From positions 1 through 64,000 of the IMG/VR virus record IMGVR_UViG_3300028393_000001: a stretch of 64,000 bases of DNA; one strand, 5' to 3'. Shown here piece by piece: positions 41,971-63,760 of the stretch. Under the pieces are notes generated by a model. It saw only the letters and a list, made by a program, of their open reading frames with translations. It was not told the origin of the DNA and did not search any database. Source of the stretch: a virus. Position 1 is the first letter of the stretch. Every line of letters starts with the position of its first letter. The position numbers and the translations under genes were made by a program.

Positions 41971-42171
41971 TCATTGTTCAACTCCAAAGTGTTCCATAAT
42001 CTCACCCATCAATGCGTAGGCCTTATGGTTGTAACCTATACCTAAACATTCTCTTACAATCAACTCGGCGAACTTTTCTTGATCCAATGTCATAATCGGT
42101 GTGTAGCCCCCATCTGTGTAGTACGCAACCTTTTGTGCCTGTTCAGCAAGTTTTCGAATTCGTTCGTTCAT
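41971..42171 (-). CDS. Small phage protein, MNERI family
   Basis: 66 residues: MNERIRKLAEQAQKVAYYT...KFAELIVRECLGI...GEIMEHFGVE. This short helical family with the core F-A-E-L-I-V-R-E-C is common and unexplained in phages. A relative lies at 43,267. The ATG overlaps the fdhD stop. Confidence 0.75.
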   Translation of the reverse strand: MNERIRKLAEQAQKVAYYTDGGYTPIMTLDQEKFAELIVRECLGIGYNHKAYALMGEIMEHFGVEQ

Positions 42172-42983
42172 TCTTCAACTCCGTACACCAACCGCTCAGG
42201 TGCAGTAAAACAAAAAAAGCGTCTGTTGGTGGCTCGGCCTATGGCGCATAGGTTTAGTTTTTTTGCAATTTCATAACCCATTTCAGTAATACCACTGCGA
42301 GATATAACGATAGGCACCGCCATTTGTGCAGACTTAATAATCATCTCGCTGGTCAGTCTTCCAGTTGTGTAAAATACTCGGCCATTTACTGATATGCTAT
42401 CTTTAGGTTGTAATGCCAACCATCCGGCAATGGCATCTAATGCATTGTGTCGCCCCACATCTTCAATAAACACCAGCATGTTTTCACCTTGAAATAATGC
42501 ACAACCATGTACAGATCCAGCAGTTTTATAAATGCTGTCATTTGTGCGTATAGTATTTACAATAGCATACAACTGAGTTTGCGTGATCGAGGCTGGAGGC
42601 AATTGTATATCACTGATATTATCCATCAACTCTCCAAACATACTACCTTGCCCACAACCCGTGGTGACTGTACGTTTGGCTGTTTTCCTATTGAAATTCC
42701 TAATTCCATTATGGGTCTTTGCCGCAGCCGCCCCAACTTCCCAATCTACCGTTATTGAATCTATTTCTGCCGCAGAAGCAATCAGTCGTTGATTGAGCAA
42801 GTACCCCAACACCAACCATTCGGGATAGGCTCCTAGGGTCATCAGTGTGACAATTTCTTTTTTATCTACATAAACTGTCAGGGCACGTTCAGTAGGTATT
42901 TGTAATGTCTGCATCTCGCCGTGATGATTCAACACCGTAACGGTCCTTGTCAAGGAAACGTCGGATACTGTGATATTGTTCAT
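42168..42983 (-). CDS. fdhD: FdhD, formate dehydrogenase sulfurtransferase accessory protein
   Basis: 271 residues, full length. Diagnostic features: PTERALTVYVDKKEIVTLMTLG, the loop TTGCGQGSMFGEL (Cys110 retained; the second Cys of the E. coli CxxC is Gly here, as I recall from betaproteobacterial forms), GSVHGCALF, VFIEDVGRHNALDAI, and the C-terminal TGRLTSEMIIKSAQMAVPIVISRSG. FdhD passes sulfur from cysteine desulfurase to the molybdenum cofactor of formate dehydrogenase. No formate dehydrogenase or desulfurase is in the window, so it would act on host enzymes. Coupled to phage genes at both ends (ATGA), so it belongs to the phage. Confidence 0.92.
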   Translation of the reverse strand: MNNITVSDVSLTRTVTVLNHHGEMQTLQIPTERALTVYVDKKEIVTLMTLGAYPEWLVLGYLLNQRLIASAAEIDSITVDWEVGAAAAKTHNGIRNFNRKTAKRTVTTGCGQGSMFGELMDNISDIQLPPASITQTQLYAIVNTIRTNDSIYKTAGSVHGCALFQGENMLVFIEDVGRHNALDAIAGWLALQPKDSISVNGRVFYTTGRLTSEMIIKSAQMAVPIVISRSGITEMGYEIAKKLNLCAIGRATNRRFFCFTAPERLVYGVEE

Positions 42984-55931: not shown

Positions 55932-56716
55932 AATTTCTATGTTGTTCTAGTTTGCTAGAGCACTTAGACACCCAAGATCAGACCAACAGTTAGTAATGAT
56001 AGATTATTTATAATCCGTCGAAACCTGCGGTGGCGTAACAACTGACTGAACTAGGCTGTCGCCTTGACCTAGTTCCTATTATTTAGTGTTATCAGGGTAT
56101 CGTCATAGGACGCTATGACTATGCGGGCCTAACTGTGCGAGGAACAGGTCCTAATATAACTGCTAGTCGCTTGCCAGAGGAAGCACCTTTGTTGGCAAAT
56201 TGGCACGATAGCACTAAATAATGGTAGAGAGTTAATGTTAAAAATGGGTACTCAAAATATCCGTTCTTGAAGGTTCAATTCCTTTAATTTGTAGTCAGGT
56301 GAGAAGCGTGGGCAAAGGTTAGAGATCAACTAACCGCTACAGATAATATGGTTATTAAGTAATAAAAACATAGACTCGCCATATATTAGCATTCTGTAAT
56401 TCAAGAGGCAGAGAAGCCCTTTAATATGGGGTGTCGTGTAGATTTCAAGTATCTACCAGAGTGCTAATATATGGGAGAGTACGGGTGATATGTAAGGGTT
56501 TCTCTAAGCCCTGATGATTGGAATTCCTAAGTTAGCCAACAACTAACCCCATAACTTATCCTTCTGATGAGCTTGTGAAATTCAAGCGAAACTCTAACAC
56601 AACCCGCTAGGGTCTTACCCTTTCAACCTAGTTTGAGGCGTTACGAGTCAAGGAATAAAAAAGATAGCCGTGTTGCCACTTATAGTATTGCGTCGCCGCT
56701 GGAACTAATTCCTCTT

Positions 56717-56752
56717 AGCCCTGTAAGGTTTGCCCTTACAGGGCTTTGCTTT
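56717..56752 (+). terminator. Terminator of large RNA 2
   Basis: AGCCCTGTAAGG tttg CCCTTACAGGGCT followed by TTGCTTTC. Confidence 0.92.
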
Positions 56753-56785
56753 CACTAAAATATGTTACCATAAAAATTTTAGCTG

Positions 56786-59469: not shown

Positions 59470-59558
59470 ATCTAAGATGTGCACCGCGTACCACCTAGCC
59501 CCTTGGCAATATTAATTGCGAAGATTTTAATATATAGGGCGCATCGCACATCTTAGAT
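59470..59558 (+). ncRNA. Stem-bracketed structured RNA between gene and tRNA-Tyr
   Basis: A perfect 13-bp stem, ATCTAAGATGTGC (59470-59482) with GCACATCTTAGAT (59546-59558), encloses CCCT/AGGG and GCAAT/ATTGC helices. No ORF. It ends six bases before tRNA-Tyr, so it could be a tRNA precursor element or an independent small RNA. Confidence 0.6.
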
Positions 59559-59874: not shown

Positions 59875-60318
59875 ATGTTAGTAGATAATATGAAAACCCT
59901 TATAGGGTCAACCTTTAGCCTTTACATTAAAGCTGCTAATTTTCATTGGAACATTGAAGGGGAAAATTTTCCTCAATATCATGCTTTCCTAGATAATTAT
60001 TATAATGATGTTTATGGTACAATTGATCAAGTTGCCGAATATATTCGTGCCCTAGATAGTTATACACCAGCAAGTTTAAAGCGTTTTCAAGAGTTAACTT
60101 TTATTCAAGATCAAACTATGCAACAACCCCCTATGGGAATGTTTCAAGAATTGTTCAATGATAATGCAACAATGTTAAAGTTTTTAACTGATACGTTTGA
60201 TGTAGCTACTGCGGAAAGACAGCAAGGAATTGCTAATTTTATTGCTGAAAGAATTGACGCGCATCAGAAACATCAGTGGATGATTCGCAGTATTTTAAAG
60301 AGCGTAGCTTCTCTATAA
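59875..60318 (+). CDS. Dps-like ferritin family protein
   Basis: 147 residues. KAANFHWNIEGENFPQYHAFLDNYYNDVYGTIDQVAEYIRAL carries the Dps signature (N-F-H-W-N and the D..Y.......D..AE.IR ferroxidase residues), and DAHQKHQWMIRSIL matches the C-terminal helix. Dps proteins store iron and protect DNA; in a phage it may protect the genome or sequester iron. Placed between tRNA-Pro and tRNA-Ala; ribosome site AAAAGGA. Confidence 0.88.
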   Translation: MLVDNMKTLIGSTFSLYIKAANFHWNIEGENFPQYHAFLDNYYNDVYGTIDQVAEYIRALDSYTPASLKRFQELTFIQDQTMQQPPMGMFQELFNDNATMLKFLTDTFDVATAERQQGIANFIAERIDAHQKHQWMIRSILKSVASL

Positions 60319-62858: not shown

Positions 62859-63278
62859 ATGAAAAAATTTATTTCAATTGCCGTTATCTCTTTTGCTGGC
62901 GTTGTTAATGCCGGAGAAATTACAGCCTCCTACTTAACCGATAGCGGACGTGATGGATATGCCATTAGTACACAGGTCAAAGGCGTTACCCTTGGAGCCT
63001 CACACGTTGATCGTGTTTATGACCGCTTCTCAGTAGGTAAATCTTTTGATATTGCTAAAGTCGGACCACTACAACTAGCAGCAGGCGGAAGCGGAGTATA
63101 TCAAAGTACTCTTGCTAAAAATGATAGTGGTTATGGCCTAGCAGCTCAGGTAACAGCAACTGCTGCGGTCAATAAAAACGTTGACGTAGTTGCTGGCGTA
63201 CAGAAGTTCTGGGGACAGGACCGCGTGAGTGCTCAAAATGGTAACTCGGCTACTGTTGGAATTAAAGTTAAGTTTTAA
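62859..63278 (+). CDS. Small outer-membrane beta-barrel protein
   Basis: 139 residues from ATG 62859 (AGGA upstream). Signal peptide KKFISIAVISFAGVVNA, cleaved after Ala (ANAG context VNAGE). Alternating strands such as YAISTQVKGVTLGASHV and GLAAQVTATAAVNKNVDVVAGVQKFWG follow, and the chain ends VGIKVKF with a terminal Phe, the BAM recognition mark. Phage barrels of this kind (lambda Lom type) can change the host surface or block other phages; role here unproven. Confidence 0.8.
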   Translation: MKKFISIAVISFAGVVNAGEITASYLTDSGRDGYAISTQVKGVTLGASHVDRVYDRFSVGKSFDIAKVGPLQLAAGGSGVYQSTLAKNDSGYGLAAQVTATAAVNKNVDVVAGVQKFWGQDRVSAQNGNSATVGIKVKF

Positions 63279-63285
63279 TTTAAAT

Positions 63286-63385
63286 ACACTACTTGCCACT
63301 TAATAAATATATGCGGAGACGTTCCGGACTGTGTCATTCCGCGGGTAACTGGGAGCACCCAGCATAGGTAGTGTGTTTTTTATTT
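63286..63385 (+). ncRNA. Hairpin RNA / terminator region before tmRNA
   Basis: ACACTAC (63286-63292) pairs with GTAGTGT (63368-63374), followed by GTTTTTTATTTT. Inside are GCGGA/TCCGC and CTGGG-agca-CCCAG hairpins. It may terminate the barrel gene or be the 5' part of the tmRNA precursor. Confidence 0.5.
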
Positions 63386-63394
63386 TATAGTTGT

Positions 63395-63682
63395 ATGAAG
63401 TAGACAGAAAAGTGTCTTGGACGGGGGTGCGAATCCCCCCAGGTCCACCAGAAGTATATTCGACCTCACACGCGGAGAGGTGAAATATAACAGAATATAC
63501 TTCTGATGGGCCTGCATAGTTTCGACAGGGCAAAGAGTAGGAAAATGGACAACTCGGTAGGCGATGACCGTTAATCAAGCAAAACAAGTAAACGCAAACG
63601 ACTCACAGTTCGCATTAGCAGCCTAAACACTGCTTAGGGTTTTGATAAGTTTTCCTCGTAACAGAATAAACTTATCTCAAAT
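63395..63682 (+). ncRNA. ssrA: Circularly permuted (two-piece) tmRNA
   Basis: The acceptor piece comes first: GGACGGGGGTGCGAATCCCC... with T-stem GGGGG/CCCCC, loop TGCGAAT, acceptor 3' strand CAGGTCC (63440-63446), ACCA to 63450. After a 57-base spacer comes the acceptor 5' strand GGGCCTG (63508-63514), which pairs with CAGGTCC (one G-U), then TTTCGACAGGG as in tmRNA 5' domains. The tag frame begins at GCA 63594 and reads ANDSQFALAA, stop TAA 63624-63626, with the stop in the H5 hairpin AGCAG/CTGCT. The precursor helix continues: CAGAAGTATATTC (63449-63461) with GAATATACTTCTG (63493-63505). This order is that of two-piece tmRNAs. Exact outer ends are not known. Confidence 0.9.
63594..63626 (+). 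other. tmRNA tag peptide reading frame
   Basis: Codons give A-N-D-S-Q-F-A-L-A-A and stop. The LAA end is the ClpXP/ClpAP degradation signal; an alanine from charged tmRNA precedes it in the product. It resembles proteobacterial tags of the type ANDxxxALAA. Confidence 0.93.
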
Positions 63683-63684
63683 AC

Positions 63685-63760
63685 CGCAGAGTATGGAAGT
63701 GGTCATCCGTCTGGTCTCATAAGCCTGAAATCGTTGGTTCGAATCCAACCTCTGCATCCA
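63685..63760 (+). tRNA. tRNA-Met (CAT)
   Basis: 76 bases. Acceptor CGCAGAG / CTCTGCA with a C1-A72 mismatch, as in initiators; anticodon arm CTGGT-CTCATAA-GCCTG; T-arm GTTGG-TTCGAAT-CCAAC; unusual T discriminator; encoded CCA. It lacks the three G-C pairs of an initiator anticodon stem, so its role (elongator, initiator-like or modified Ile) is open. Confidence 0.88.

Follow-up and report, generated by a model that had tools for sequence, protein, structure and literature searches.

Does the tRNA array of this phage hold a working two-piece tmRNA, and what would hold its two pieces together? The window, by which we mean the whole stretch of DNA analysed (64,000 nucleotides), covers the opening 64 kb of an IMG/VR virus record of 123,962 bases, and the portal, head and tail proteins of that record are those of a phage. 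The portal is closest, at about 40% identity, to those of T5-type phages of Vibrio, Escherichia and Salmonella, and the phage is described here as a freshwater-type tailed, T5-like one. An FdhD/NarQ formate dehydrogenase accessory protein is encoded at 42168-42983 on the minus strand (Pfam PF02634, 238.6 bits), and its best matches among plasmid records (55–56% identical) are from Diaphorobacter (56%) and Variovorax, of the Comamonadaceae. Because of these matches we would tentatively guess that the host is a betaproteobacterium, probably Comamonadaceae-like. A ferritin-like protein (59875-60318, plus strand; PF00210, 77.4 bits) is encoded between phage tRNAs.

According to Rfam covariance models, ARAGORN and the sequence itself, positions 63389-63679 are an intact circularly permuted tmRNA gene, located within the tRNA array. 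The T-arm and an encoded CCA end lie upstream of the acceptor 5' strand and the tag. The features of the locus are:

63283..63378, + strand: conserved structured element directly upstream of the tmRNA (9 viral loci, consensus fold)
63389..63450, + strand: amino-acid acceptor piece, the 3' piece of the mature tmRNA, with helix-2 3' strand, T-arm, acceptor 3' strand and CCA (RF04321 alignment and sequence; inter-piece mutual information for helix 2)
63423..63439, + strand: T-arm GGGGG TGCGAAT CCCCC, nucleotide 55 being G (63429), not U (sequence, covariation with 63518)
63440..63446, + strand: acceptor stem 3' strand CAGGTCC, with U70 at 63444 (sequence, Rfam alignment)
63447, + strand: A73 (sequence)
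63448..63450, + strand: encoded CCA end (sequence)
63451..63507, + strand: intervening spacer, presumed excised, with an outer 13-bp helix that takes in the CA of CCA and an inner hairpin ACCTC/GAGGT (inverted repeat, fold, covariation across 97 spacers, homologous modules)
63508..63679, + strand: coding piece, the 5' piece of the mature tmRNA, 3' end approximate (RF01850 alignment to 63679)
63508..63514, + strand: acceptor stem 5' strand GGGCCTG, with G3 at 63510 pairing with U70 (sequence, Rfam alignment)
63515..63526, + strand: D-loop linker CATAGTTTCGAC, nucleotide 18 being A (63518) and 19 G (63519) (sequence, covariation)
63594..63626, + strand: tag reading frame ANDSQFALAA and its stop TAA (ARAGORN, which calls a permuted tmRNA)
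63644..63676, + strand: coding-piece 3' hairpin GATAAGTTT/AAACTTATC (sequence; inside the RF01850 match, paired in the two-piece fold)
63685..63760, + strand: tRNA with CAT anticodon, the next gene of the array (ARAGORN, Rfam)

A preliminary description of the locus had proposed a permuted, two-piece tmRNA, and the covariance models support both points. RF04321 (tmRNA_permuted) matches 63389-63626 over model positions 1-213 of 213 (136.8 bits, E 1e-26, cut-off 47), and RF01850 (beta_tmRNA) matches 63336-63679 (116.9 bits, E 6.7e-35, cut-off 84). The acceptor strands, CCA, T-arm, spacer helix and tag are all where that description had put them, at a level far above chance, and the acceptor halves form the expected 7 of 7 pairs, one of them the G3-U70 wobble. 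A better fit to a one-piece model would have spoken against it; RF00023 gives only fragments of about 22 bits (best 21.9, cut-off 47) against the 136.8 bits of RF04321, which rules out a one-piece tmRNA. The comparison of subtype models that it had suggested puts beta first, and the alphaproteobacterial (RF01849, 58.5 bits) and cyanobacterial (RF01851, 39.6 bits, below its cut-off) subtypes were rejected on their lower scores. "Beta-type" stands here only for the best-scoring of these three subtypes, because the window gene has a G55/A18 elbow and not the U55/G18 of all betaproteobacterial copies in our set. We know of no publication in which U55/G18 is a defining feature of the beta_tmRNA subtype.

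We consider it likely (roughly 80%) that the gene encodes a working two-piece tmRNA, which would supplement host trans-translation with the help of host SmpB. The host protein would be needed because no smpB gene was found in the 124-kb record, which may be incomplete. The tag is a short, intact frame with a hydrophobic degron end, ALAA, and 202 of 216 viral tags end in AA. These features bear on a different role, in which the phage RNA, whole or as separate pieces, would act as a competitor or poison of the host tmRNA, as has been described for phage DS6A, whose form of the RNA inhibits the endogenous tmRNA when expressed in E. coli (PMC11915505). The DS6A RNA has no tag frame, whereas that of the window ends in ALAA and was found again in 28 viral copies, and we regard such interference as highly improbable here.

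The spacer that separates the two pieces is bounded by a perfect helix of 13 bp that includes the CA of CCA (CAGAAGTATATTC / GAATATACTTCTG). Between it and the acceptor stem lie a single A-T pair and a C-A mismatch, so that the precursor helix runs over 22 positions with a single mismatch, and inverted-repeat search and folding thus confirmed the flank stem and the approximate helix length given earlier. Spacer and acceptor helix together fold at -34.3 kcal/mol (z -7.2), with 0 of 200 shuffles as good. A set of 97 viral spacers, all below 70% similarity to one another, shows pairing between the 12 opening positions and the closing ones, at a level of covariation that none of 500 shuffles reached; a single position can have as many as six kinds of pair. 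In 25 spacers from genomes this pairing recurs, though more weakly. Since 12 positions covary across 97 dissimilar spacers, the precursor helix is under selection and is not peculiar to the phage of the window. It is not universal, because some alphaproteobacterial spacers are only 8-12 nt long. In most cases the spacer terminates in TGAT; this tetranucleotide pairs with A73, C75 and A76 but has an A-C mismatch at C74. By analogy with ribosomal RNA processing stalks, the spacer helix may dock the acceptor halves and be cut by double-strand and tRNA-end nucleases.

An Rfam scan of 63270-63700 (E up to 5) gave no match for the upstream element and, chance matches aside, no known ribozyme or riboswitch in either this element or the spacer. 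The tRNA-associated theta ribozyme, an HDV-like double pseudoknot with its cleavage site at the tRNA 3' end (PMC10879173), was considered for the spacer within the Rfam families scanned; the outer stem of the spacer closes its 5' end to its 3' end, unlike HDV. Some tmRNA spacers have a tRNA-derived look: that of L265 contains tRNA-Asn-like sequence and that of L269 has D-arm- and T-arm-like hairpins. Two long hairpins were also observed in the tRNA region of the window, at 56379-56474 (18-bp outer stem, z -6.5, in the ORF-poor stretch 55940-56760) and 59470-59558 (13-bp outer stem, z -5.6), with 60-63 nt enclosed by the outer stems.

The second question, how the pieces stay together, was addressed in a set of 255 permuted genes, 225 of them viral (the window gene included) and 30 from genomes. 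Genes were kept if they had at least 6 of 7 acceptor pairs and at least 4 of 5 T-stem pairs, with no condition on nucleotides 55 or 18. The retrieval patterns demanded TCCACCA and GGG, and the conservation of G3-U70 in the set is therefore by construction. Nucleotide 55 of the T-loop and nucleotide 18 of the D-loop belong to different RNA pieces; they are U/G in 144 genes, G/A in 110 and U/A in one, so that 254 of 255 are consistent. The window gene is in the G55/A18 state. By normalised mutual information between the pieces, the pair 55-18 ranks first, acceptor pairs 69-4 and 68-5 come next and helix-2 pairs after them; the extraction filter favoured the acceptor pairs but neither 55-18 nor helix 2. 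On a tree built from the coding piece alone, with the columns of the tested sites left out, site 55 changed 29 times and site 18 changed 28 times. Of 16 independent pairs on supported branches, 15 were concordant, none discordant and one unchanged (p 6e-5).

The sole exception, L305 (U55/A18), has a spacer (97%) and a downstream half (about 100%) like those of L298, whereas its upstream half is unlike. This places a break inside the spacer and makes L305 a recombinant or chimera. All 23 alphaproteobacterial genes parsed are G55/A18. A G at the nucleotide 55 position of the Caulobacter T-loop was noted in 2005 (PMC1168896), and a search of the accessible open literature turned up no statement about its partner. 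Taken together, the covariation suggests that phage tmRNA pieces are docked to each other through a tRNA-like elbow. Part of the covariation could still be due to the two sites having moved together in a single block of recombination; in many cases the spacers between sites 55 and 18 were not co-transferred with them.

Spacers at least 85% identical were found in 106 pairs of viral genes, of which 38 differ in elbow state and 58 in acceptor. In 58 gene pairs the two genes are alike in the spacer only, with both flanks below 72%, and 14 spacer clusters contain more than one elbow state. The spacer module of the window recurs at 72% identity in two tmRNA genes with another tRNA-like domain (L151 and L159), and it stands alone, outside any called tmRNA, in L457. 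Related hairpins occur between ordinary tRNAs (e.g. L277, L252). Two of 18 tRNA-tRNA gaps compared have a stem of at least 8 bp (0.2 expected), numbers too small to generalise. These sequence comparisons show that the presumably excised spacer is swapped in a cassette-like manner between otherwise divergent phage tmRNA genes. A single mobile sequence family was rejected as an explanation. Since the helix and the end motif are all that 97 spacer groups, below 70% identity to one another, have in common, short-homology recombination within the conserved tmRNA flanks is the simpler reading, and it explains the exchange without a dedicated mobile element. The preliminary description had suggested that the gene might carry host-lineage information; this is doubtful, as spacers and tRNA-like domains are mosaics swapped among phages.

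A tRNA or tmRNA gene may bring a phage no benefit and be carried as selfish cargo. The rampant exchange of segments among viral tmRNA genes, and the existence of some viral copies without a callable tag, would fit a neutral or decaying passenger that was captured along with the tRNA array and is kept in circulation by recombination while inactive in trans-translation. We think this unlikely: tag frame, acceptor stem and helix 2 are all intact in the window, and elbow and acceptor pairs have been kept by compensation over about 28 switches on the tree, which would not be expected of a decaying gene.

Two-piece tmRNA genes of phages are already known. The view that one in a phage genome is unusual does not hold, given that 53 of 133 unique phage tmRNAs were two-piece forms in an earlier survey, 50 of these 53 being from marine or aquatic phages (PMC9004378, 2022); the window gene adds one more case. 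Another study listed 79 phage tmRNA sequences and supplied a merged model (PMC11915505). Our strict pattern retrieved 47 further viral contigs and had no match in 84,980 prokaryote genomes. Looser patterns gave 107 viral contigs versus 53 genome stretches, many of the latter by chance, and patterns with longer spacers at least 120 viral contigs. In all, the scans retrieved more than 200 viral contigs with a permuted tmRNA, and about 250 relatives were compared. The permuted form is also present in the isolates Mendera (Stenotrophomonas), X1 (Xanthomonas) and BUCT-ZZ01 (Synechococcus). In several viral permuted tmRNAs (L128, L124, L136, L026 and others), ARAGORN called unusually long tags of about 25-31 aa, such as ANADTFDFSAMSFTGNTVRGAANESRFALAA.

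Among bacteria, nearly all matches of the pattern search in Alphaproteobacteria were due to chance. Because their linker reads AGGATCGAC and defeats the pattern search, the covariance model was used instead, and 37 of 41 sampled Alphaproteobacteria passed the permuted model. In the order to which Cupriavidus belongs, 60 genomes were sampled and only 3 did so. Two Cupriavidus and three Stenotrophomonas genomes have a permuted gene together with a full one-piece tmRNA (189-220 bits), and Cupriavidus pinatubonensis HN-2 has five permuted copies (L070, L096, L101 and L111 among them) on chromosomes and a plasmid, beside its one-piece tmRNA. The permuted gene thus looks accessory in these two genera. 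Its sparse distribution, the five copies in one genome and the coexistence with a full one-piece gene would agree with permuted copies being markers of mobile islands, kept for instance for an att or recombination site with ribosome rescue secondary. Around the window copy no repeat-bounded island was identified, and we judge this explanation quite unlikely.

Directly upstream of the tmRNA, the element at 63283-63378 adopts a three-way fold (GCCACTTAAT..ATGCGGAG..TTCCGCGGGTAACTNGGA..CCNAGC..GGTAGTGT). In several of the nine viral loci it lies between a tRNA-Thr and the tmRNA; in L460, L462 and L463 it occurs without a called tmRNA nearby. In seven of the 36 pairs of its consensus fold, both partners have changed and the pairing persists. 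A search immediately 5' of the tmRNA yielded no sigma-70-like promoter, and expression would therefore depend on read-through or on phage promoters. A small protein encoded at 62859-63278 (plus strand) has a signal-peptide-like start, a C-terminal KF and an outer-membrane-barrel-like appearance, with no Pfam match; other viral tmRNAs may be followed by small genes of a similar, secreted-looking type.

If the gene does encode a working two-piece tmRNA, a single transcript would contain the acceptor piece, the spacer and then the coding piece. The spacer helix would draw the two acceptor halves together, and host RNases could remove the spacer by a double-strand cut in the roughly 22-bp helix, by RNase P at GGGCCTG and by RNase Z or exonucleases at CCA. 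That the RNA is cleaved into two pieces is what its homology to known two-piece tmRNAs leads us to infer. Acceptor stem, helix 2 and an elbow contact between nucleotides 18 and 55 would then hold the pieces together; the RNA would be charged by AlaRS via G3-U70 and loaded on stalled ribosomes by host SmpB. Products ending in ANDSQFALAA would be directed to ClpXP-type proteolysis. During infection this may add to the trans-translation of the host, for instance where host or phage nucleases have broken messages.

The comparison that the window gene set off matters more than the gene itself. It shows, across about 250 relatives, which contacts hold the tmRNA pieces together. The pair 18-55 of the elbow, which hardly varies in tRNA, occurs in a second state in permuted tmRNAs and has been switched many times. 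Furthermore, swappable hairpin spacers in phage tRNA arrays are candidate processing elements. A broader speculation, to which we give somewhat less than even odds, is that phage permuted tmRNAs are modular, combining a two-state elbow lock with a hairpin spacer cassette that is found between ordinary tRNAs as well, moves from gene to gene and serves phage tRNA arrays in general as a processing stalk; elbows that do not match could even bar assembly with host pieces.

Of the known systems, the betaproteobacterial permuted tmRNA (RF01850; merged RF04321) shares with the window gene its gene order, acceptor stem, helix 2, PK1 region and tag frame. The Cupriavidus copies have the same acceptor, GGGCCTG/CAGGTCC, and a spacer helix GAAGCRCATT...GTGCGCTTCTGAT. 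The betaproteobacterial copies differ from the window gene in spacer length (57 nt in the window versus about 30) and in the elbow, which is G55/A18 with a linker one base shorter in the window, versus U55/G18 in all betaproteobacterial copies examined. The aquatic phage Melnitz (PMC9004378) likewise encodes a complete permuted ssrA, in keeping with the aquatic bias of such phages, but its tmRNA is of the alphaproteobacterial type and lies under a predicted glutamine riboswitch, whereas the window gene is beta-type with no riboswitch called. Stenotrophomonas phage Mendera and Xanthomonas phage X1 also have the permuted gene inside a phage genome, and the acceptor of X1, GGGCCTG, is that of the window; unlike the window gene, both have a U55/G18 elbow, and their tags are VAANDDSYTVRIAA and VAANDADYSVARYA. 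The alphaproteobacterial two-piece tmRNA (RF01849, Caulobacter) differs in its T-loop, mostly GGCRGTA, and in its linker (..AGGATCGAC), yet it has the same G55/A18 elbow as the window gene.
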